Shown here in pieces: positions 9,864-61,049 of a stretch of DNA of 64,000 bases (position 1 is its first letter; the number at the start of each line of letters is the position of its first letter). The stretch comes from Crambe crambe (lineage: Eukaryota > Porifera > Demospongiae > Poecilosclerida > Crambeidae). A program made the position numbers and the translations under genes. The stretch covers positions 1,612,001 to 1,676,000 of the forward strand of contig OZ004588.1 of NCBI GenBank assembly GCA_963924555.1, written 5' to 3'. The notes beneath the pieces were generated by a model. That model was given only the letters and a program-made list of their open reading frames with translations, did no database searches and had not been told where the DNA came from.

Positions 9864-10157
9864 CAGGGTTTCATACAGCAGATAGGGAAAGGGGAGAAAC
9901 CCCCCTCTGATTAAAATTCCCCCTAAACAAATAATTACTTAATGTGTCTAAAAAATAGTAATCCTGAAAAGGAAACTATCTTCCCTTCCACAGGTAATTG
10001 TACATGAAGTGGATTCATAATGCAGTCACAACTTTGCTTTGAATTTTAAGTGTACATGACAGTTGTAGAAAGTAAAGTGGGTGTGGTTACTTTTTTCTCA
10101 CACAGGCATGCCAATATGCATAGTCCACCATGTATCCAAATTCCTGTATGAAACCTG
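9864..10157. mobile_element. MITE, about 294 bp, CAGGGTTTCATA ends
   Basis: Terminal inverted repeats are CAGGGTTTCATACAG on the left and CTGTATGAAACCTG on the right. A second copy lies in opposite orientation at 39487-39773 and shares internal sequence ('tcctgaaaaggaaactatct' here, its complement there). A truncated relative of the left end is near 27448. Both full copies contain C/G-rich subterminal tracts. Non-coding. Confidence 0.7.
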
Positions 10158-10175
10158 CCCAGTGTGTCTACCACA

Positions 10176-10985
10176 GTATGGAGGTCCCAGTGTATCCACC
10201 ACTATGTGGAGGTCCCAGTGTGTCCACTACTATGTGGAGGTCCCAGTGTGTCCTCCACTATGTGGAGGTCCCAGTGTGTCCACCACTATGTGGAGGTCCC
10301 AGTGTGTCCACCACTATGTGGAGGTCCCAGTGTGTCCACCACTATGTGGAGGTCCCAGTGTGTCCACATAGTGGAGGTCCCAGTGTGTCCACCACTATGT
10401 AGAGGTCCCAGTGTGTCCACCACTACGTGGAGGTCCCAGTGTGTCCTCCACTACGTGGAGGTCCCAGTGTGTCCACCACTACGTGGAGGTCCCAGTGTGT
10501 CCACCACTACGTGGAGGTCCCAGTGTGTCCTCCACTACGTGGAGGTCCCAGTGTGTCCACCACTATGTGGAGGTCCCAGTGTGTCCACCACTACGTGGAG
10601 GTACAATGTGTGTCCACCACTATCAGTGTGTCTACCACTATGTGGAGGTTCCAGTGTGTCCACCACTATGTGGAGGTCCCAGTGTGTCCACCACTATGTG
10701 GAGGTTCCAGTGTGTCCACCACTATGTGGAGGTCCCAGTGTGTCCAGCACTATGTGGAGGTCCCAGTGTGTCCACCACTATGTGGAGGTTCCAGTGTGTC
10801 CACCACTATGTGGAGGTCCCAGTGTGTCCACCACTATGTGGAGGTTCCAGTGTGTCCACCACTATGTGGAGGTCCCAGTGTGTCCAGCACTATGTGGAGG
10901 TCCCAGTGTGTCCACCACTATGTGGAGGTTCCAGTGTGTCCACCACTATGTGGAGGTCCCACCACTATGTGGAGGTTCCAGTGTA
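10176..10985. repeat. 28-bp minisatellite, about 29 copies
   Basis: The unit is tgtggaggtcccagtgtgtc plus caccacta (28 bp), repeated across about 810 bp. Variants are tatg/tacg, ggtccc/ggttcc and caccac/cagcac/ctccac. From 10649 the ggttcc variant recurs at 10649, 10705, 10789, 10845 and 10929, spaced 56, 84, 56 and 84 bp. This is a 140-bp (five-unit) higher-order repeat present twice. Because 28 is not a multiple of 3 and no stop occurs in the unit, all three forward frames stay open. The resulting ORFs are artefacts of the repeat. Confidence 0.95.
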
Positions 10986-11206
10986 CTTGTATATAGCAGT
11001 GGAATTGATGTGTACAGAGTTTTGCAAGTTGCTTGTCACATTGTAAAATGCTAATACGAAAGTTATGACAACTAAATCAACAATGTAGTATAGCTGAATA
11101 GAAAGGGCATTTACATGTAATTTTACCATCATGTGACTGTCATGCATCAGCCAAATAGCCAGGTACTGTGTACAAGTCTGTGTAGCTAACTATGTCCTAC
11201 TACCAG

Positions 11207-12343: not shown

Positions 12344-13369
12344 TTACATATAACCTGCATGTTTAATATAATTTACACAATCTAGTGGAGTAATTAAAGC
12401 AAATGCTTCAGCGAATATGATTCTAGGTGTGTTTGTTGATTGATAACTTAGTTCATTATCTCTAAGATATGACTTCACTTGACTAAATGCTTCCTCAATG
12501 GGGTTCAAGTCAGGGGAGTAAGGTGGTAAAAATCGTACTAAAGCACCAGTGGCTGTAATCAATTGAGTTACTGCTTCTACATGGTGGATAGATGCATTAT
12601 CAAGTATGACTACAGAACAGGGATTGTCGCCACCATCGAATGGAAGTAGTATAGGAAGTAAGCACCGTTGCACAAAATTCATGAAAACATCCGAGTTCAC
12701 ATTTCCCTCTGCAATATAAACATCTTCTATTCCCCGAAAAGTCAGTATCCCTATGGCCGACAACCTCTTACCATATAAAGTAAATTTGTGGGAAGCAGGT
12801 GTCATGCCTTGAAGACCATATCCATATTTACATATTGTATTATGGTGGTTTGATCCTGTTTCATCAATGAAAATTAAAGTTTTGGGGTTAAATTCCATTA
12901 TTTCAGAGATATATTTTGCTCTCTGAACATCACACCTTTGTCTTGCTACTAGACGCATTTTCTGTCTTGTCATACCCAGTCTTTTGATGGTACGGCAAAT
13001 AGTAGCACAATCATACCGGGATCCTGTTATATGTAACAGCTTTTGTTGTATCTCACGACGATACATGCTGGGTGTACTCAGTAGCGTCTCTAAAATGGTG
13101 ATTTCCTCAAACTCACTCATTTGTGGTAATGGACCATGCCTTTGGCATTTAGGTGATACATCCTCAGTTGTATAAAAAAGATAGATGTATCTCTCAATTG
13201 ACCTGATGTTTACATACAGTTCACTAGAAATCTCTTTTATTGTCTTCTTTTGTAGAAGATACTTCCAAATTATCCGCCATCTAAGGTCTTTTGAGTACCC
13301 TTTTGGCATTTTGACTGCTTCTTGTACTGTACAGTAGTTATTTTGAATTTGAATTCTGAGCATGCTCAC
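12344..13369 (-). CDS. Tc1/mariner-IS630 superfamily transposase, intact, DD34E
   Basis: An uninterrupted 341-codon frame. The start may be the internal Met at residue 21 (MPKGYSKDLRWRII, at 13309), giving 321 aa. Residues about 26-80 form a helix-turn-helix (TIKEISSELYVNIRSIERYI). A second DNA-binding part is at about 95-150 (YRREIQQKL...CATICRTIKRLGM). The DDE catalytic domain follows: D169 in LIFIDETG, D257 in VVILDNASIHH, and E292 in PYSPDLNPIEEAF, with 34 residues between the last two (DD34E). It cuts and reinserts the element by TIR recognition. It lies inside TIRs at 11015 and 13805. With no frame break and well-kept TIRs, the copy could be young or active. I did not identify the exact subfamily. 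Confidence 0.92.
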   Translation of the reverse strand: MSMLRIQIQNNYCTVQEAVKMPKGYSKDLRWRIIWKYLLQKKTIKEISSELYVNIRSIERYIYLFYTTEDVSPKCQRHGPLPQMSEFEEITILETLLSTPSMYRREIQQKLLHITGSRYDCATICRTIKRLGMTRQKMRLVARQRCDVQRAKYISEIMEFNPKTLIFIDETGSNHHNTICKYGYGLQGMTPASHKFTLYGKRLSAIGILTFRGIEDVYIAEGNVNSDVFMNFVQRCLLPILLPFDGGDNPCSVVILDNASIHHVEAVTQLITATGALVRFLPPYSPDLNPIEEAFSQVKSYLRDNELSYQSTNTPRIIFAEAFALITPLDCVNYIKHAGYM

Positions 13370-13805
13370 CTGTGTCTGCTAGCTAGATAGTACATACAGT
13401 GTACACAAGGGCTATGGTACTACTGAATTTCACTACACTATATATATTGGTGTCTTAAAATTCATTCTTGTTTGCAGTTAAAATTTGCTACTGAATGGAA
13501 TGGGAATTTCTGCAAAGTGCAGATTTTAGCTGCCGAAACCAAATCATGCACTACAAGTATAAGTCCTGGGTTCCTGGGTTAGAAGTCCTGAGAACATAGT
13601 TTCTTACAATTATATGATGTAAATCTGGGCCATGGGGACCATGATAATTTTAGTAATTATTAAACAAGTTCAACATAAAATTATAACCCTGATTATGCAT
13701 GAGATTCACAGATCTATTTCTATTCAGCTTACTACATTGTTGATTTAGTTGTCACAACTTTTATATTAGCATTTTGCAATGTGACAAGCAACTTGCAAAA
13801 CTCTG

Positions 13806-15219
13806 TATGTATTTCTACTCATAATTATGTTCATTTGGAGGAAATGTATTGAAGTTTTGAAAACTACATAAATGTGGTCTGTGGCATGTAGTGTTGTTGG
13901 TCAAATGTAAACAGTCTCTATGGCATGACATCTTGTAACTATACATTCCTATTTGACATTAAGCATGCATGCCATTGTGGATATCCCAGGGTTGCAATTG
14001 TAATGTGTATAAGGAAGCTTTTGGGGGAGAGTTAGTACGTAGGGGATGTTCCATTCAGCCAAGAAAATAAGAAGTTATGCAATAGTAGTGTAGTGATCAA
14101 AATAACAACCTGACACGACATTCTAATCAAGTATATCAGGTACATGCATAACACCAGTAAAGGCATGTAGTCTTAGTGTTCACAATGCGAAGTCATCCTG
14201 AAGAAAATCTAACCAAAGTGGACTACATTAATATGTTCAAATTTCAGCTCTACAATGTTATACGACATGAACTTTCACATTCTCCCAGTCTAACATAATG
14301 TACTGTTGCCTCTGTATTACTTTTTTTCCTGATGCAGTGCATTGGTTTTCAGTAAATCTAACCAAAAGTTGTTTTTAGTGTTGATACAATATTGTAACAG
14401 TTCCCATTGACTGGTTGGTTATTTCCACTAATTTTTTAAAAGTACTACTTACCTGATGACTATCCATTAACTTTCACACGTGAAATATACCACAATACAA
14501 TTTAGTAAGCAATCACAAAATTAAGTGAGTGATTGTTCCAGGAAATTCCATATACTATTCCATGTTCACTGGCGTTTCACATCCATATGGAGTATCTATA
14601 TTATCTATGGCCTATGCAAAAGGCTGTAGAAAACAATCTAGCTCAATTACAATTGGAGCATGTGCATTATGCACACACACGTATGGCACCATGCGTATGC
14701 CTGGGGCATTTTGTATTGTAGACATATATATATTACAATTTCAGTGAGTCATGACTTGAGAGTCAGCTCACTCACTCTACTTGCTCACTTAATTAAGATA
14801 TCTGTAATTTAGGTCCTTATTTATAGGAATTATGTAATCTGTACGGCATATCTGATTATTGTATATGACCACATGAATTCTTTTGCCAACGGATACAGTT
14901 GTTAGTACAACTGATAGTAATTTTGTTTGAGTGATTTTAGTCCACTGAGGTCCCAGTGTACTTTTAAATAGCAGTGGAATTAATGTGTATTACACAGAAG
15001 ATACTTTTTGTACTCTGTGTTGTTTCCTGCCCATATATTAGCTAGCATATATTCATTTGTTAGACAATAACATGAATAATTGCCTTTGATATAATGAGGT
15101 AACTATATCATGTAGTAGCCACTTGCTCGGCATACAAGTGTCTACTTAGAGACCAACTTAGAAACCTGTGATTGTCATCAGACTATATATACACAGTTTA
15201 TACTACTGTCTAAGTCATT
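13806..15219. other. intron/spacer with local duplications
   Basis: No exon was found. Pieces repeat nearby: about 13914-13950 matches 15378-15418 (a-aatctctatggcat), 14879-14925 matches 15882-15920 (cttttgccaac-gatacagtt), and 14946-14990 matches the minisatellite flank at 10972-11014. At 14740-14775 is an end-like motif (gagtcatgacttgagagtca) whose reverse complement recurs at about 42310-42345. Confidence 0.5.
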
Positions 15220-21420: not shown

Positions 21421-22739
21421 TTTACAAGACATTTGTAATGGGATTACAGGAAGGTTAGGGGAAGATTCAAAGAGTTATGTTGGTGGAGTTGATATCAAGG
21501 CAAGGCCATCATCCAAACCCAACAAAAGCCAAGAACTACTTCTAGTTCAGATCATTGATGAAACTTCAGTTATGTCAGCTCCAGGACTTACAATAAATAG
21601 AAAACAAAGAAGAAACATAAAGATTTAGATATTCAACTGGACACATTGAAGGCTTACCATCTATAATGAGCTTTCATAGAAAAGAATCACCTGTTCCTTA
21701 GATTGATGAATTTGAGTATTTAGTTTCCATAAGGTTTATATGATGAAGCACTAGCTATATGATATTGAATTAGCAAGGTCTCAAATTGCATCTTGGAACC
21801 AATTAGCTCTTTATGGAATCAGTGTAAATACCATAATCGTTCAGAGTTTTAAAATTTCATGATTTCCGGAGCTGTTCCTATAATAAAAAATTTCTGCAGA
21901 TCTTGGAAAATAATGCATGCGCATAATATCTATATCATTGCCTGCTGCTGGGGCCGAGTGACATGCATGATGGCGTGATTTGTGGCTACTACTGAGAAAC
22001 CTAGATAGTCCCCCAAAAAGAAGAAAAGCTGGGCTGGCGATGCCAGACTAAAATCTGGACTGCTACGGAAAGCGAGACACTTCATTGTAGAAGAGAGACA
22101 GGTAATGGCCATGATCCCGCATCACGCACGCATGCACATCGTTATCATTATGATGTCATAGTACTAAGGATTCTGATCGACTACGAAAAAAACAAAAATA
22201 AAATCCCATCGAAAATTTATACGAATACGGTATATTCTTTCACTGCTACTATTTTTCAGGAATGTGATAAGTATAAATATTAGTATGTTATTAGTTGCAC
22301 TATTGGCATTATCAGGTTCTCCACCATTGGCTGACTAAAGTGGTACTAGGTAGCTAGCTATCCTGTCAATTGCTAGCAAATTCTTGATTGCTGATTGATT
22401 CTTTACCTTATGTAATTTGGAGCTGGCTACCACTAACATGATCAGCACTCACTTGGCAGCTAGTGAGCATAAAGAAAGAAGAAATTGTTTTGTTTATCAT
22501 TCCACTATCATATCTTGAATATAGTAGAATGTCCTTACATGTGCATGCAAAAAACTAATACGTAATGTCCAAGAAAAAACTGCAGGATAGTATGCAATGA
22601 TGTTCTATGTCTGTTGTGTGTGTAACACATACCAAGTAGAAAAAAATTAAATTTGAGTGGGTGTATTAAATATTAGTAATATAATTTATACATGCACAAT
22701 GACATTCGTCTGTTTTTTTGTTTCATTGACTACCTGTAG
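21421..22739. other. intron upstream of the GTPase exon, nothing recognised
   Basis: AT-rich, no recognised repeat or exon. It ends in a normal acceptor (ctacctgtag) at 22739. Confidence 0.45.
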
Positions 22740-24884
22740 GTTCCGCTGAGTCACGTCGACTGTATAGCGAAGCAATGAAGCAGGGACACGTAAAGTCCCA
22801 GATCAACAAAGCCCTCCTTTATGGGGCTCCAGGAACCGGAAAATCAAGTTCAATGGACCTTTTTGTCGGTAACCCTCCAAGACAAGCCAGAGTAAGCACT
22901 CCTTTAGCTGCTCGTCCAATTACAATGATTCAAATGGGAATCACATCAAAGGAGTGGAAAAAGCTTCATCCAAAAGAACGGAAAGAAATTCTAGCAAGGG
23001 CCATATATGCTCAGCTTCATGCCAACGACACAAATTCAGGTGAAGATTGTGAGTCATCAGCTAATTCTGGTGAGAGTTCTGATTCTGATGAAATATTAAC
23101 GACTCCTGAGCATAAAGAAGCTCGTAGTAAAGAGGATAAGTCGACACGTGACGTACATCCACGAGTACACCCAGCAACTCCTTCCAGTCCAACATCTGCT
23201 AGCAAACCAAAGAAAGGTTCTCATTCGAAGGAAAAGATTTCACTGCCATCCCTTGGCACACATGATGAACTAACAAAATTATTGGATGAAATTTCCAAAT
23301 CAGATGATCTTGAAGCTTTACCTGTCTTCCGGAAAGTTAAACTAATCGATTCTGGTGGACAACCACAATTTCATGAGGTGTTACCTGTATTTCTTCGTCG
23401 CATGTCCCTCTACATATTCGTCTTCAAGTTGTCAGAAGAACTCGCCACCAAGCCCATGGTAGAGTATTTTGGGGAGGATGGGAAACGTGTGGGGACACCT
23501 TACCAATCAGCTCAGTCCAACGAGCAGCTATTGAAGCACTGCCTTCGCACTTTGCACACTCACAGATCATCTCCCGATACTAAAGGTGAGTGCTCCAAAA
23601 TCATGATCATAGGGACCCACAGGGACGAAGAACACCTGTGCACGACCGAGACAAGAGAGGAGAAGAACAAGAAGTTAGAAGAGCTGTTACTGCCGATGTT
23701 CCAAGAGGAAGTCGTCTATTACAACCTTGCAGAAAATGAGGTGATCTTTCCAGTCAATGCCAAAAATCCTGAAGAGCTTGATAAGAGTACAGCTAGAGAT
23801 ATCCAAAGTGTAGTCCTAACAAAGTGTATGCCTGATCCCATAGATGTGCCCCTTCAGTATTTCTCTTTGGAAATTATCCTTGAAGAAGTCAGCCTTTCTT
23901 TAGACAGAGGGGTATTGAGCAAAGAAGAATGCCTTAGAGCAGCAGATAAGCTTTTCTTTAATGAGCATACACTGGATGCAGCTCTCCAGTTCCTAGATGA
24001 AATTTCGTCAGTCTTTTATTTCCCCGAGGTTCTGGATGGTGTTGTATTCACTAACCCTCAAGTCCTTTTGGATAAGGTAACCGAGTTAGTGGAGATCACC
24101 TATTGCTTAAGAGAAAAGGTTGGTGGAAGAGCACTTCGTGCACTCTCTGGAGGCTGGAAGAAGTTTAAAGATCATGGCATTGTTAGCTTAGAGCTTCTGC
24201 AAGAGAAAGAGTTTAATAAGCATTATGTGCCTGATATCTTTACTCCTGTTGATCTGGTCAAGCTCTTTAGAAAGTTGCTCATCATAGCTGACTTTAGTGC
24301 TTCAGAGTACATCATGCCTGCCCTTCTTCCTGTTCTTGAAACTGAGAAGGTTAATAAATATCGCTTGTCTAACGATTCACTTGTAGCTCCTTTTGCTCTG
24401 GACTTCCCACTCGGAGGTCCTCGTCTTGGTACTTACTGCAGTCTTACTTGCTTTCTTGTCTCTAATGACAATCAGTTTCCTTGTCCTTGGAAAATAGTGT
24501 TGCTTCCTCGTTCCAGCACTCCGGCTTGCCTGAATCGAAACTGCACCCAATTCACAGTGCCAGGTTTCCCTGGCTCTGTCACTCTGATTGACACATTTAC
24601 ACATTTTGAAATACATATGCACACTGCTGAAGAAGTGTGTAGCAAGATGTGTTCCTTTGTCTCTCAAGCAATTTTTGCGGGTCTGAAGAAAGCAACAGTC
24701 ATTCTTGGCTACAACAACTCCATCCCATCAAAAGCACTTCTTTGTCCGTGTGATGTTAGTAACCCTCATATTGCCACTTTTAGAGACAGAGTTTGGACCT
24801 GCAGTCGAGACTGCAATGTGTTTGGAGTGCTTACTTCTAGACAATCACTATGGTGTGAACAAGAACATTATTCCTCTACAAATG
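22740..24884 (+). CDS. P-loop GTPase (Roc-like) plus COR-like region, large exon of GTPase-Death protein
   Basis: One 2145-bp exon, 715 codons, no stops, from a tgtag acceptor to an ACAAATG|gtatgt donor, phase 1 on both sides. Counted from the Met at 22775: Walker A is GAPGTGKS at residues 17-24, followed by an acidic Ser-rich insert at about 85-150. The G3/switch II motif is LIDSGGQPQF at about 189-198. The G4-like motif IIGTHRDEE is near 276. A COR-like region covers about 350-520 (LQFLDEISSVFYFPEV, VVFTNPQVLLDKV, LLIIADFSASEYIMPALLP). A Cys-containing region follows to about 700. The nearest known arrangement is the Roc-COR-Death of DAPK1-like ROCO proteins. It may act as a nucleotide-dependent scaffold in immune or cell-death signalling; this is inference. 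The in-frame residues before Met (SAESRRLYSEA) and the acceptor show that the Met is internal. Pieces of this exon lie decayed at 20.8-21.4 kb. Confidence 0.85.
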
Positions 24885-24891
24885 GTATGTC

Positions 24892-24968
24892 CATACATAC
24901 ATAAAAACATATACATACATACATATATACATACATACATACATACATACATACATACATACATACAT
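24892..24968. repeat. (CATA)n microsatellite
   Basis: Roughly 17 CATA units begin only 8 bp after the GTPase exon donor and fill most of the 123-bp intron. Length changes here would alter a very short intron. Confidence 0.95.
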
Positions 24969-34577: not shown

Positions 34578-34735
34578 TGACTACAGGACCACACCCACCT
34601 TTCATCTTTTTTTAATGTGTATGTTGGGTTGAGAGAGTTCAGTATCATTGTTGGTCATGTGATCAGTTGTGTCATTCTTGATAAATCTTATAAGCTTACA
34701 CATGGGCATTATGATTTTAGGGGGTGGGGCAGGCT

Positions 34736-34766
34736 AGTCTCGCGCGGGCCAGACTCTCACAGTCGC
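34736..34766. mobile_element. 31-bp end relic of the TAGTCTCGCG transposon family
   Basis: AGTCTCGCGCGGGCCAGACT begins the insert. It is flanked on both sides by GCAGGCT (34729-34735 and 34767-34773). The sister copy at about 55330 lacks it (ggcaggctggttgc). The end motif AGTCTCGCGCG is the same as the terminus of the element at 55641. It is probably an internal-deletion or excision product. Confidence 0.55.
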
Positions 34767-34855
34767 GCAGGCTGCTCTGGATATGGTGCTGGGTATTACT
34801 TGCATCAGTGATTAGCACATGCAGATCTGTTTGAAGATCGAGATGGAGACAGCTT

Positions 34856-35161
34856 AGTTAAAGAACTGCTCCAGGTACTTGCAGGAGTTGCACTGGAAAC
34901 ATTCCCGACACTTTTTGACAAGAAAGCTGTTTCCAAGCCTCCTCCCACTCTCTTGAATAGCCGCCTCCAGTCTGTAATCATATTCTTGCTCAGCCATGTG
35001 GCGCTAAAAAATCCGGAGCGCAGATTTTTCCTAAATTCGTGATGTATAATAACGTCATAGTCGCGCCCCTCCTTCCGAAGATTGCTGACTGTGCACAGTA
35101 CAACAAGACTCTTTCCTTCCCTCGCGGTTGGTAAAGGGTCTGGCCCGCGAGACTCGACTAG
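34856..35161 (-). mobile_element. 306-bp truncated derivative related to the TAGTCTCGCG transposons
   Basis: A 9-bp direct repeat AGACAGCTT (34847-34855 and 35162-35170) flanks 306 bp that are absent from the sister copy (gagacagcttacttgttgag). The right end, read inward, is CTAGTCGAGTCTCGCGGGCC, close to the relic at 34736 and the big element's TAGTCTCGCGCG. The left end (AGTTAAAGAACTG) is not a matching TIR, so it seems truncated. On the minus strand, from 34997, a frame opens MAEQEYDYRLEAAIQESGRR and includes a Cys-rich KKCRECFQCNSCKYL stretch. It could be the N-terminal part of a transposon gene joined to a later part. Not certain. Confidence 0.5.
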
Positions 35162-35227
35162 AGACAGCTTGCTTGTTGAGTTGAGTGTCTGCAGTCGGCG
35201 CCATTGAACGAGGTTTCATTCATTCAG

Positions 35228-35261
35228 ATGGAAATGTTCTGCATTAATAACTGGCATCTGT
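35228..35261 (+). CDS. first coding exon of array unit B (MEMFCINNWHL)
   Basis: ATG at 35228 opens MEMFCINNWHL and meets a CTGT|gtaagt donor in phase 1. The sister copy at 55477 differs by one residue (MEVFCINNWHL) with the same donor, and the upstream 'cggcgccattgaacgaggtt' is conserved. It lies about 650 bp after the end of unit A's last exon, so this looks like the start of the next tandem gene. Confidence 0.5.
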
Positions 35262-35832
35262 GTAAGTACCTGCAGCCTTTGGACATTTAGGTTAACAAGT
35301 CTTAAATCTGTGATAGCTTCCAACTTGTAAAGATCATCCATTGATCCACCCATCTTTAGCAAAAGACATGTTTTCTTGGAGTCAGATATGATGATGTGCT
35401 TTTACATTGTATACCTATATGATGTCATGTGACAGCTGGGTTGCATATGCATAAACCCCTTGCTGACCAATGCGGTACTGTTACCTTACTGAATATGATG
35501 TGACCTTAATCAAGTTGTTTAAATTATGTGCTGGATTTATGGAAGCATCGAAGGCTGGCTTGGATAAAGCATCAAAGTCTTACAATATCATACGCATCCT
35601 TTTGTGTATAATATTAGCAATGTGTGGATTTACAGTGTACACCCTTCCTCTCCCCCTCCACTTCACTTCTTTACACTTCCACACCTTTGTTTCAACTGCT
35701 ACATGCTTTTCATTGAGTGGAGTTGTACTTCCGGCACAGCTGGTCATACTTTCAAGTTTCTGAGCATCTGGTAGGTTGGAGATACTTCTTTTCATTCTAG
35801 CTAATCACTGTATATTGTGTATGAAATTCCAG

Positions 35833-55303: not shown

Positions 55304-55476
55304 TTGTGATTTTAGGGGGTGGGGCAGGCTGGTTGCATGGTGGGCATTATTTGCATCAGTGATAGCACATGCATTGAATGTTCTGACCGAGAGATCTGTT
55401 TGAAGATCGAGATGGAGACAGCTTACTTGTTGAGTGTCTGCAATCGGCGCCATTGAACGAGGTTTCATTCATTCAG

Positions 55477-55631: not shown

Positions 55632-55640
55632 TCAGATATG
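55632..55640. repeat. left 9-bp target-site duplication TCAGATATG
   Basis: Identical to 61041-61049. The empty site in the sister copy (about 35380-35390) has it once: gagTCAGATATGatgatg. Confidence 0.92.
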
Positions 55641-55825
55641 TAGTCTCGCGCGCCCGCCCCTCCAAAATAAAATCGGAGGGTCTGGTGTCACGCGTATATC
55701 AAACTCGTTCTTCATCAGTATCGCACGCGCGCCTGATAGAATGTATGAATATCATTAAATTGATTACTAAACTTGCGCGCTATTAATAGCCGACCGTGAG
55801 CAGGAAAGATTTAGCTGTAGGAGTG

Positions 55826-58800
55826 ATGGAGAATTGCTGTAGCTGTGGGCGGGATGTCTCTAGTAAGGCTGAGAGAAAACAAAGGAGGCTCCTCTGTGGT
55901 TCTTCTATGTCCACAGTGCTGCAGACATTACTGACTTTCATAAAGAAAATGCAAGACCTTGAAGTAGATGCTGCAAAAATTAGCAAAGGATTCATTTGCA
56001 GACCTTGTGTGCGATTGATACAAAGATACCACAGTGTTTATGGAGAGCTAGAAAGCAATATTAAAAAAGCAATTCCACTTTTGCCGACAACTGGTGAGTT
56101 CTAGGCATAAGGGTTTCTTCTTCTATGTATCAATCTGTTTTATTTGGCTCTGCAGCTCTTTCATCACCCAGTACTTCTTTGGGCTCTCTTCCTTCAGGAT
56201 CTGGATCATTTCATTCAGAGTCAGGCTCTGCATCTTTGGATACTTTTCCTTCAGCATTTATTCCTTTGGACTCTGTAACTTCATGCTCACCATCACTAAC
56301 AGTAAGCTACTGTGTTATTCCCCACTACTATAGCTTTAGCATCTGTCTATAATAGGCTACTATTCATTATGACTCTAAGCCCAAATCCTTCAAAGTGACA
56401 CCAGCTAGGAGAAAAATTTGCAAACCACTCATAAGAAAGAACTATCGATCCTTTGCTACAAAATGTTTACAAAACATAACAACAAAAGAAGCTATGGTCA
56501 AAACCATTGGGCGTATTTTGAAGAAGGAGATTGAAGCAATGTGCTCCAATAAATTCAATTCTATTTTGAAGAGTAAGACTAAACAATCCTTGGAAGATTT
56601 TGAAGTCAGCAATGTCATCAATGAATTGAAACACAAGGCACCTACATTACTCTCCCTTCTGAAATGTTGCTTGCAGACTAAAACTCCTAGATTAAATGTT
56701 AATTTTATAATAGTGGTGATTGCTGGTTTAATTTGCAAAAACAAGAGAGAATCGTGTTCACTAATTCAGCGACTGACCTCCTTGATCCTCTATGCAGGGC
56801 ATTCAGCAAAACAAGTAAGTTTGTGTTGGGAGCTAAATGTATAATAACACCCCTAATAATTGGTTAGGTATATCAGCGTCTACAAAAGATGGGTATCTGC
56901 ATGTCTCACAGTACTACAATCAAGTTGGTGGATAAGTTGGGTAAAGGTTTCGATATGAAAGTGAAAGAATGGCAGGAAAATGCAGCAAGACAGTTGAGCT
57001 TGAAAAAGGTATAGCCGGCATTGCAGTCTCTAAGTATACATTATCCTGGCATTCATGCATGTAGGTGACCAACACCATCGAAGAGACGACCATGATAAAC
57101 CTCATTGATACTGATGTTGAATCTTCTCCATCACCATTATCACCACCACTTCTTCAGTCATCTCTAACTCTCTATGTGGATGAAGAAACTAATTCATCAA
57201 TGTCATCATCAGCAGCTTCTTTAGAAAGTGTAGGTCATGACCTGGATTTCAACAGCAGCACTACATCTGACAGTTCCAGCAGTAACTCATCTGATAACTC
57301 TTCCAGTTATGACGGTTCACTGAGTGTATCACAGAGTTGTGAAAAAGAAGCTGATGTTAATATCAGGGAACCCCTATCCCTCAATGCTGGGTACAAAATT
57401 GTGTTCGATAACATAGATAAAAATGTCAACCCCAGGTATATGCGAAGTGACTATCAAACAAGATCCTTACATTATGTGCAATCCTTTGCAGTAAAAGATC
57501 GCATAGCTTTTTCCAATTTATCAGGTGAAATTCGAACAGAAGTTAACATATTTGATGTTATCCCTGGTGAAGAGGACTATAAAGCATTGAAGCAGGACTT
57601 TATAATACTCTTGTCCCGCTTGCTAGTAGAACATCTACCATTTTTCAACTCTGATTACAAAGGACTTGTACCAAGCCACATTCCTCACAAGTTCTCTAAT
57701 GAAATGTCTAAGGAGTCAGAAATAGTAAGTGTTATAAGAAGAAGTGCTTTCTTTTTTATACAAATTACTTGTACAGGTCCCTCTTGGAGTATTGCTCAAG
57801 AGTGAAACTAACTATGAGGACATGACTGAGATCCTTGAACACTACCATACTTATGTTCCCTCCGTGAACTGTGAGAAGTTTATTCCTGAGACAGGGATAA
57901 CACCAGACAAGTGCTTCCTAACAACATTAGTTGGTGGTGACTATTTATCTGTGGCCCGGGCTAGGGGGGCCCAGTTAATTCGGTCTACATCTGAACTTAC
58001 AAAGGACACACTGGGTGGCATTTTGCCAGTGGCAGAGGATTGGCATGCCAAAGTTTGTTTCATGGAGGTAAAAGAATGCATGCTTGAACCTGATACTCTG
58101 CATGTTTGAATTTGCACATTATTGTGCTAATGTCAGCATGTGAATATGGTGTTGTTGGAATTTTGAGCCATATACATGTTTGAACCTGCACAGATATTGT
58201 GCACAACCAGCATGTTGGCTCAAATTAATTTGACCATGATGTGTTAGACTCTCAATTAGTACATGGCATGTTGAGGCTCAATTAAGAATTAATTAATTTA
58301 TAATATGGCTCACTATCAATAGGTAATATGGAAACGCCTCTATAATTCGAAGTCAGTAATGGAGAGGGGGACTTTGTACCAGCTGAGAAACCTCATAAAT
58401 CGAAGAAACGTAACCACTGAGGTTAAGAGTAATGTTAATGCAAATGAGGACTTTTTTGAAATTGTGGTGACCGGATATGTAATTGTGACGGCCATGAAAT
58501 TCCTTGGTATGTCCTCTCTTAACGATATACCCCATGCCTCTCATGTACCTTCAGACTCGTGGATGCAGGAAGACTCTGTAAGAAAATCTATTCTTACTGA
58601 CTTGTCATCCTCCATTATAGACTTACGTGTAGACCTGAAGACTGACTTTAATCAGCCCACCAGTACAGCAAGTGGTACCATATGTGACTACAGTTGTGAA
58701 GTCCTGAGTCTTGGACTACTCTATCTTGACTTCAAGGATGCAGTGAGGGAAGGAGATGGTGATCGCATCATAATGATTTGGAAATATTTTTTGCTCATTT

Positions 58801-59306
58801 TTAAAGCTACGGGTCATACTAACTATGCTTTGGAGGCACTAACACTCCTAACCCAGTATTTTATCACACTTCCTCCCAACCTCGCAGAGCAACTCAAATG
58901 GTGCCGCTTTATCAATACTCACGGAGACTTGCCTGGACACAACATCAGCTGTGATCTCCATATGGAGCATTTGAATCGGATGGTTAAAATGTCGATCAAC
59001 GGACTGGGAGCCAACAAGACTGAGAAAGCAATTGTCCGGGCAGGAAAAAGTGTGGGTTCTTTCAGCAAAAGCCTGGTTAACTTTGATTATCAAGCTGGTG
59101 TACCATCGATTAGTGGTATGCACTCCCAAAAATCAATGTCTAAGGACTTGAAGGTGATAATACAACAATTGTTGAATGCCAATATATTTGATACATCACA
59201 TGCTCATGAGTCTTTCGCAAAATTAAAAACCAATTTAATAAGAAAGTTATCGAAAGAGGAGCTAATGGATTGGGTTTTCAAAAACTTCAGCAAACACACT
59301 ATGTAA
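55826..59306 (+). CDS. DUF6589-type transposon protein, 7 exons, about 982 aa
   Basis: Inferred exons are 55826-56093, 56156-56301, 56356-56814, 56868-57008, 57065-57724, 57777-58067 and 58323-59306. All have GT/AG borders; the first intron is phase 1 and the others phase 0, with no stop in the joined frame. The N-terminus is MENCCSCGRDVSSKAERKQR, with a C-x-x-C pair and a second pair in FICRPCVRLIQRY, a ZAD-like zinc module. Ser-rich linkers lie in exons 2 and 5. Exon 4 has VYQRLQKMGICMSHSTTIKL. The C-terminal half is the DUF6589 region: FILLSRLLVEHLPFFNSDYK, TTLVGGDYLSVARARGAQ, VAEDWHAKVCFME, FKATGHTNYALEAL, CDLHMEHLNRMVK and GLGANKTEKAIVR. GD in LVGGD, D in EDWH and E in HMEHLNR are candidate catalytic acids for an RNase H-like transposase; this is inference. 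The spliced model needs RNA support. Confidence 0.8.
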
Positions 59307-59374
59307 TTGTTATTGTTGACTTGTACAGTATGTATGTGTAAGTGGCTGTCTACAAATTAATTATGATTGTACAT

Positions 59375-59470
59375 GTAAATACACAACATATACAGTAATA
59401 ACCAGGTGAATGATAACTACATAATACACAACATATACAGTAATAACCAGGTGAATAATAACTACATAAT
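59375..59470. repeat. tandem repeat, about 52-bp unit x 2
   Basis: Two copies of 'acacaacatatacagtaata' plus 'accaggtgaat-ataactacat' lie between the convergent genes. The second covers the RecQ-like stop codon, so both genes share this terminator-side region. Confidence 0.8.
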
Positions 59471-60894
59471 GCTAAATGAATTTATGTTCAAATCACATTG
59501 TTCACAGTTGCAGGACTTCTGGCAAATATCACAACATTTGCATCCAGTGCCTGTCAGAGTACAATCATAAAAATCTTGAAATAGTACTATCCTCCGGCAT
59601 TTCAGCGACTTGTTAGTACAATAGTCAATCATGTGCTGAGTAGTGTAACGTTTGTCTAAATCAGATGATGTCTTCAGTATAGTAGCACATGCCAATTTCC
59701 CATCCCTACCTGCCCTTCCAGTTTCCTGAACATACATTTCAGCATCAGCAGGTACACCCCAATGTATCACATGCCGAACATCTGGGCAGTTGATACCCAT
59801 ACCAAATGCTATGGTTGCTATGACAACTCTCAGTACTGATGGTTTGGTGAACTGTGCAATTATCTTATTTTTGACTGTCTCATGTGTGCAATGTGTATAT
59901 ATATCAACGACTCTATTTATCACATAATTTGGAGAGCCCTTTGGCTCTGTAAAGTACTCTCCTAATTTCTGTCTAAAAAATTGATATATAGATATTACAT
60001 TGTTGTACGTTTTGCAAAATATTATTATACGTCCCATTTTACTTCTTTCAGATTTCAGTCTGTCTACGATAGATTTGAAAGCTTCAGAAATTCCACCTTT
60101 GGGTTTATCCAGGACAGAATATAACAAGTTCTCCTTAGCTGGAGGAATATATGTAATTTCAGGTGCTTGCATGCATAAACTTTTTATTATGAAATTTCTT
60201 GTAGTTTTCGTTGCCGTGGCAGTCAATGCCATAACCCTAACTGTACTGGGTATGATACTGCGTACCTCATCAAGGTGAGAAAATTCAGTTCTGAACTTCT
60301 CTCCCCTAAATAAAAAATATTATAGTCTTATCTTTAATTTGAGTTGTAGTTGGAGGGGGCCTCATCAACTTACCATTTTTTGACGCAGTGAGCTTCGTCT
60401 ATGACAAATGCTATCAAATTTGATATGTAGATATCGGAAGAAAGGATATTTCGCCACTCTGTAGACAAAAAAAGAGCTTCTGGACTGACAAAAATTATCT
60501 GATAATCCCCATTCTTTATTCCTGCTTTAACTGAAGAAGTAGTCGATTGCTTATCAGTAACGTATGTAGAAGACAGTCCCATTGCTGTTACAGTGGCAAC
60601 TTGATCCTTCATTAAGGCTATCAATGGAGACACAACTAAAACAATTGATTTCTTATCAACCTTTCTTATAATATCAAAAATAGGAGGCAATAAGATGTAG
60701 CAAAGAGACTTTCCATAGCCAGTAGGGAGAGATATGAATATATCATTACCAGCTATAAACTTTTGTAGACTTCTTTCTTGTTCAAGTTTTAGTTTAAATC
60801 CGAAAGAATCAGCAACCTTGGCTATGGTAGCCTGCATGACATCCTGACTCAAGCTTAATAATAGCGCGCTAACTTTCATAAGCATTATTCCCAC
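59462..60894 (-). CDS. RecQ-like SF2 DNA helicase of the transposon, 2 exons, about 454 aa
   Basis: Exon 1 is 60894-60374 and exon 2 is 60305-59462, with a AAATG|gtaagt donor and a ttatttag acceptor, phase 2. The joined frame is open. Alternative starts are Met4, Met6 or Met20. Counted from the first Met: Q-motif-like EQERSLQKF at 38-46, Walker A LPTGYGKS at 56-63, motif Ia VVSPLIALMKDQ, DEAH box at 166-169 and CVKKWG across the junction. Exon 2 has ALTATATK (motif III), IIIFCKTYNNV (IV), VIATIAFGMGINCPDVRHVI (V), QETGRAGRDG (VI), then a Cys-rich CKCCDICQKSCNCEQC tail in place of the full RecQ zinc/winged-helix part. It is short for a RecQ and lacks an HRDC domain. It probably unwinds DNA during transposition or repair of the donor site. 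It converges on the DUF6589 gene with 155 bp between stops. Confidence 0.88.
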
Positions 60895-61040
60895 CCACGC
60901 TTTACGTATGAAACCACACCCGCTACATAAGCTATACAGCTCAAAGTATGTCCTCCAGAATCTGGAGGAGAGAACGAGTTTGATATACGCGTGACACCAG
61001 ACCCTCCGATTTATTTTGGAGGGGCGGGCGCGCGAGACTA

Positions 61041-61049
61041 TCAGATATG
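61041..61049. repeat. right 9-bp target-site duplication TCAGATATG
   Basis: Matches 55632-55640. The unit D sequence (atgatgtgctctta) then continues as in the sister copy at 35388. Confidence 0.92.

Follow-up and report, generated by a model that had tools for sequence, protein, structure and literature searches.

The 64,000-nt stretch of Crambe crambe DNA analysed here (assembly GCA_963924555.1, contig OZ004588.1, positions 1,612,001–1,676,000; hereafter the window) carries a 5400-bp element, at coordinates 55641–61040, which contains two convergent, spliced genes, one for a protein with a DUF6589 domain and the other for a RecQ-type DNA helicase. In all likelihood, judging from its sequence, this is an autonomous AcademH transposon in which DUF6589 is a DDE-type transposase and the RecQ helicase an inherited partner. 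As a type of transposon the element is already known, being a member of AcademH; what is new is the probable role of DUF6589 as a transposase, together with the different footprint left by a sister lineage of this genome.

The element is bounded by terminal inverted repeats (TIRs) of 71 bp at the left (55641–55711, plus strand), starting with TAGTCTCGCGCG, and of 70 bp at the right (60971–61040, minus strand), their sole difference being one base that is absent from the right end. These are flanked by a perfect 9-bp target site duplication (TSD), TCAGATATG, located at 55632–55640 and 61041–61049. The same sequence occurs on the plus strand of the window a third and last time, at 35382–35390, and once in reverse complement, at 14847. 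The occurrence at 35382–35390 is a single copy in a sister segment that runs on uninterrupted, as if the element had never inserted, and represents the empty site: the flanks of the element, joined with one TSD copy, showed 85 % identity over 529 alignment columns to positions 35161–35664, the match being exact in the 17-bp stretch that the TSD closes. Near-identical TIRs of about 70 bp, a perfect 9-bp duplication and a pre-insertion site at ca. 35.38 kb had all been claimed in an earlier note on this DNA, and the three claims stand. The stretch near 55420, which is the sister of that at 34735–35155, appears to have a deletion between two internal GAGACAGCTT repeats. Additionally, two 45-bp direct repeats (98 % identity) are situated at 59378–59467, between the 3′ ends of the convergent genes.

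The putative Academ-type transposase gene (55826–59306, plus strand) is predicted to contain seven exons (55826–56093, 56156–56301, 56356–56814, 56868–57008, 57065–57724, 57777–58067 and 58323–59306) and six GT-AG introns, and would code for 982 aa between an ATG at 55826 and a stop at 59306; splice variants of 984 aa and others are also open, the 982-aa form having been picked for its GTAAGT donor. The last two exons match Pfam model PF20231 (DUF6589), with E values of 3.7e-25 and 1.1e-8. The N-terminal region (55826–56093, plus strand) includes a CxxC..CxxC arrangement and is weakly similar to zf-AD (20.6 bits); because this match is below the Pfam cut-off of 28, the ZAD-like N-terminus put forward earlier is only suggestive.

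The helicase gene (59462–60885, minus strand) codes for 451 aa from an ATG at 60885, in exons 60885–60374 and 60305–59462 separated by a single predicted intron (60373–60306, minus strand). Both genes can be spliced into open frames, as the earlier note had it, with the 982 aa given there for the first and 451 aa, not 454, for the second. The helicase protein contains helicase motifs and a C-terminal Cys cluster; its exons, scanned separately, matched TIGR00614 (recQ_fam) with E values of 4e-38 and 3.3e-29, each under the whole-protein cut-off of the model, and the best matches in PDB were RecQ, WRN and BLM (E 1.3e-47 to 8.1e-43).

A convergent helicase adjoins DUF6589 at 31 of the 37 distinct window-type loci, which were drawn from two sets of genome matches (at least 105 and at least 110 matches). 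For 14 loci, selected for long reading frames of both genes, pairwise identities among the transposases were strongly correlated with those among the helicases (r = 0.959, 91 of 91 pairs), a value as high being found in 0 of 2000 permutations; without the pairs of at least 90 % identity, the correlation was 0.927 over 89 pairs. Since both genes lie in one element, this correlation points to long joint inheritance without swapping, and not by itself to function. These results support that the helicase is a long-standing inherited partner of DUF6589, in agreement with the dedicated partner proposed earlier.

Searches of the sponge's own genome (143 Mb in 119 contigs) identified at least 41 places matching the first 120 bp of the element. 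The pairing of TIRs and TSD was examined in 14 distinct two-ended insertions of this family, and held exactly, with the repeats abutting the ends, in ten of them (9 bp in eight and 10 bp in two); another had an exact 9-bp repeat shifted by 4 bp on one side, two matched at eight of nine positions, and the insertion at C13:5181757 (L007) was the sole one with no duplication. The count takes L008, L086 and L087, with identical flanks, as one insertion, and is exclusive of the single-ended or decayed copies L077, L078, L080, L081 and L082 and of the unfetched places C16:4429357, C16:4354175, C16:4305732, C8:8570492, C3:7812277 and C1:1305670. An abutting repeat of 8–10 bp was present in 10 of 13 true flank pairs (a table to which L007 does not belong), versus 0 of 156 mismatched left/right pairings.

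Four further long copies were tested for coding capacity: in those at C11:3606826 and C20:105614 the 982-aa frame is open and none of the six GT-AG introns has been lost, with 16 and 14 substitutions relative to the window copy across some 5.2 kb, and the copies on C19 and C5 are broken. The family also includes short copies, such as L079 (329 bp) and L008 (354 bp), and copies reduced to hardly more than their ends that are flanked by 9–10 bp duplications: L083 (C12:1767368, 52 bp; duplication with a mismatch), L084 (C5:2385196, 71 bp), L085 (C11:6795327, 102 bp, with a run of GGGCTA repeats inside) and L088 (C17:4416841, 51 bp). The evidence supports that the window element is a real, repeated transposon. 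Separately, positions 34735–35155 of the window are part of a short, high-copy element (at least 40 copies), whose left end appears to begin with TAGTCTCGCGCG too and whose copy in the window is without a clear duplication; a 306-bp insertion with a 9-bp repeat initially delimited at 34855–35160 was withdrawn, as it is part of this short element.

Three acidic residues of the predicted DUF6589 protein are candidates for catalysis: the Asp of FDNID (57407–57409), the Asp of GGDYLS (57939–57941) and the Glu of HMEHLNR (58965–58967), all encoded on the plus strand. Their conservation was assessed in alignment A3, of the window lineage (26 rows, mostly single exons), and in alignment A2, with six rows of a second DUF6589 lineage that lacks the helicase; the window protein has all three residues, with only its Glu exon being a row of A3. 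The DNxD Asp was invariant in the four A3 and six A2 rows covering the column, the GGD Asp in six A3 and six A2 rows, and the EH Glu in 19 A3 rows, including the window exon (L009); at the position of this Glu the helicase-less lineage has DEAHE, invariant in the six A2 rows. In a single profile comparison the two lineages aligned over 314 columns (probability 93.5, E 2.3e-7), with GD falling on GD and GDWH on EDWH. Because the D, D and E are invariant in the covering rows, and because DUF6589 occurs in two lineages whose mobile ends differ, DUF6589 is probably the transposase of the window element, as had been suggested in the earlier note. Academ is counted among the DDD/E superfamilies in the available portion of PMC9587614.

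The helicase-less lineage encodes DUF6589 in one long intronless frame, of 1849 aa in L089 and 1289 aa in L090, and its ends are CAGTC...GACTG. Duplications of 4 bp (TTGT, AACA and ACGT) flanked three of three two-ended insertions, a count that omits four further copies in which both ends were not located. A search for a window-type helicase was negative in L090, which comprises most of one element, and in the stretches examined of the other loci, and the only helicase match in L089, which comprises a whole element, belongs to the element surrounding it. Both lineages meet in a nest of three at C5:6045200–6057464, with a 6616-bp element containing the 1849-aa frame innermost (TTGT, 4 bp), a short TAGTCTGGC element in the middle (9 bp, GGTGTCACG) and a copy of the window family as the outer one (9 bp, CACGGCAAT). 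A 9-bp duplication for the lineage of the 1849-aa protein, taken from this locus, was considered and rejected, the 9-bp repeat belonging to the short TAGTCTGGC element in which the 6616-bp element is inserted. The C-terminal half of the 1849-aa protein contains acidic motifs and a Cys-rich CXC stretch (alignment A4), and the order of the acidic motifs matches that of the FEN1/XPG nucleases. Neither Pfam nor PDB gave a nuclease match to this protein, and none of the three genome matches to XPG_I was at a listed DUF6589 locus.

The TAGTCTGGC element of the nest belongs to a second family of the helicase type, represented by L039, whose proteins are about 40 % identical to those of the window element and whose ends are TAGTCTGGCATAGC. 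Eight short copies of this family were fetched, from 40 places listed, and the seven that showed both ends were all flanked by an exact 9-bp duplication.

In the portion of PMC10045372 available, duplications are of 9 or 10 bp for AcademH and of 3 or 4 bp for AcademX, and duplication length is linked to the helicase in the former and to the nuclease in the latter; AcademH (Kojima 2020, Mob DNA 11:15) is cited in the accessible parts of this paper and of PMC10799480, PMC12210899, PMC8290104 and PMC9970103. The window element encodes a RecQ-type helicase, and 10 of the 14 insertions of its family have an exact and abutting duplication of 9 or 10 bp. The earlier note had considered the element probably undescribed or little described, and knew of no standard superfamily defined by DUF6589, RecQ and a 9-bp TSD; neither point is supported, the combination of a helicase with 9–10 bp duplications being the description of AcademH in those excerpts of PMC10045372. 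As for DUF6589, PF20231 very probably represents the transposase domain of Academ. The word DUF6589 was not found in any paper of the literature searched, where a single match to PF20231 was an unrelated optics paper, so that this identification may be as yet unprinted in that literature.

Several observations weigh against assigning the element to AcademH with DUF6589 as a DDE transposase. At six of the 37 loci no helicase is in clean convergence with DUF6589: helicase fragments occur on both strands in L018 and one is on the DUF6589 strand in L019, and none was found within the fetched flank of L021, L032, L033 and L034; stops break the DUF6589 match at all six loci except L034, where it is open (299 aa). 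Two full-length copies of the L039 family have duplications of 8 bp, or of 9 bp when the initial T of the end is included. The Glu residues of the two lineages lie one position apart in the profile comparison, profiles of DUF6589 retrieved no PDB chain at a meaningful E value, and the DDE assignment derives from primary sequence. Finally, the assignment to AcademH was made by description, with a definition that comes from one later paper, PMC10045372.

An alternative is that the element represents a new superfamily with no relation to Academ, in which the RecQ helicase and the 9-bp duplication arose independently. In keeping with it, no label in Pfam, NCBIfam or PDB connects DUF6589 with Academ, and DUF6589 is absent from the literature searched. 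Against it, the same genome contains the helicase-less DUF6589 sister lineage, whose 4-bp TSDs match AcademX in length. We consider this alternative improbable, and it was mostly dropped because, in the excerpts of PMC10045372, a helicase and a TSD of 9 or 10 bp are both diagnostic of AcademH.

It could also be argued that DUF6589 is not the transposase and that the DNA is moved by the helicase or by an enzyme of the host or of another element, inasmuch as the role of DUF6589 is deduced from sequence. This is less probable still: DUF6589 is common to two lineages that differ in their ends and in their duplications, no helicase of the window type having been found in the second, and RecQ helicases are not known to cut DNA strands.

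A Kolobok relative (KolobokH or similar) with a RecQ helicase is barely conceivable, given that Kolobok duplications are TTAA, whereas those of the window family are of 9–10 bp with no fixed sequence. According to the portion of PMC9587614 available, RecQ helicases do occur in KolobokH and in Kolobok-1_CCri, the latter with its helicase on the complementary strand, like the window element, but KolobokH is reported only from fungi. Furthermore, the transposase exons scanned matched PF20231 and no Kolobok-named model. Equally hard to credit is a MULE that captured a helicase, since, although 9-bp duplications are usual in MULEs, a Pfam scan that covered five of the seven transposase exons matched PF20231 and, with E values up to 1 admitted, no MULE domain, and at 14 diverged loci helicase and transposase were inherited jointly, which is not the pattern of one capture.

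The window family had no match in any of the 14 named control genomes. Among viral contigs, scans with short peptide patterns gave no match in one case and 22 and 60 matches in two others, of which none was confirmed, and 135 matches in prokaryote genomes included no confirmed relative; distant relatives in viruses or prokaryotes could be missed by these scans, because they used few short patterns.

Assuming that DUF6589 is the transposase, it would bind the TAGTCT-ended inverted repeats, excise the element and insert it at a target whose strands are cut 9 bp, sometimes 10 bp, apart; gap repair would convert this stagger into the duplications on either side. For the RecQ helicase the most likely task is to unwind or remodel branched DNA, both at the ends and at the gaps, while transposition or repair proceeds, and the end-only copies would fit internal deletion during gap repair following excision. 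The chemistry, the fold, movement by cut-and-paste rather than by copying, and the exact step of the helicase are what we infer. A stronger version, in which RecQ is obligatory in the AcademH machine and sets the 9–10 bp stagger together with the transposase, the cut geometry of the lineages differing according to whether a helicase or a nuclease was recruited, is speculative and, in our view, rather unlikely. That accessory enzymes and the length of the duplication are linked has been proposed before (available part of PMC10045372), and the novelty of this stronger version, if true, would be its demonstration. The published idea is testable in this genome because lineages of both types coexist in it, one even nested in the other: a helicase-type and a helicase-less Academ-type lineage, whose duplications, in the copies read, are of different lengths. 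DUF6589, so far an uncharacterised Pfam family, would as a probable transposase family relabel the proteins that now carry its name.

Three other regions of the window contain long frames. A 344-aa frame at 12344–13378 (minus strand) resembles a Tc1/mariner-type transposase in its FIDE... and YSPDLNPIE motifs. An open frame of 724 aa at 22730–24904 (plus strand) has a GTPase-like start (GAPGTGKSS) and, by eye, possibly codes for a Roc-COR/NLR-like host protein, and the long low-complexity frames at 10152–11054 resemble, also by eye, a translated tandem repeat and are unlikely to be a gene.

In comparison with known systems, the window element shares with AcademH a transposase, a helicase and duplications of 9 or 10 bp, as described in the excerpts of PMC10045372, the likeness being one to a published description rather than between sequences; the ends of the window family begin with TAGTCTCGCGCG. 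With KolobokH and Kolobok-1_CCri it shares the condition of DNA transposon with a RecQ helicase (PMC9587614, available part), and differs in the transposase family, in the duplication and in the superfamily to which it belongs. The relation with AcademX is of another kind: the window element differs from it in its helicase, its 9-bp duplication and its TAGTCT ends, and the helicase-less lineage has CAGTC ends; the lineage of the 1849-aa protein and that of the window element have the candidate D, D, E pattern in common, and the 4-bp duplications of the helicase-less lineage fall within the 3 or 4 bp of AcademX, so that in duplication length the lineage of the 1849-aa protein fits AcademX.

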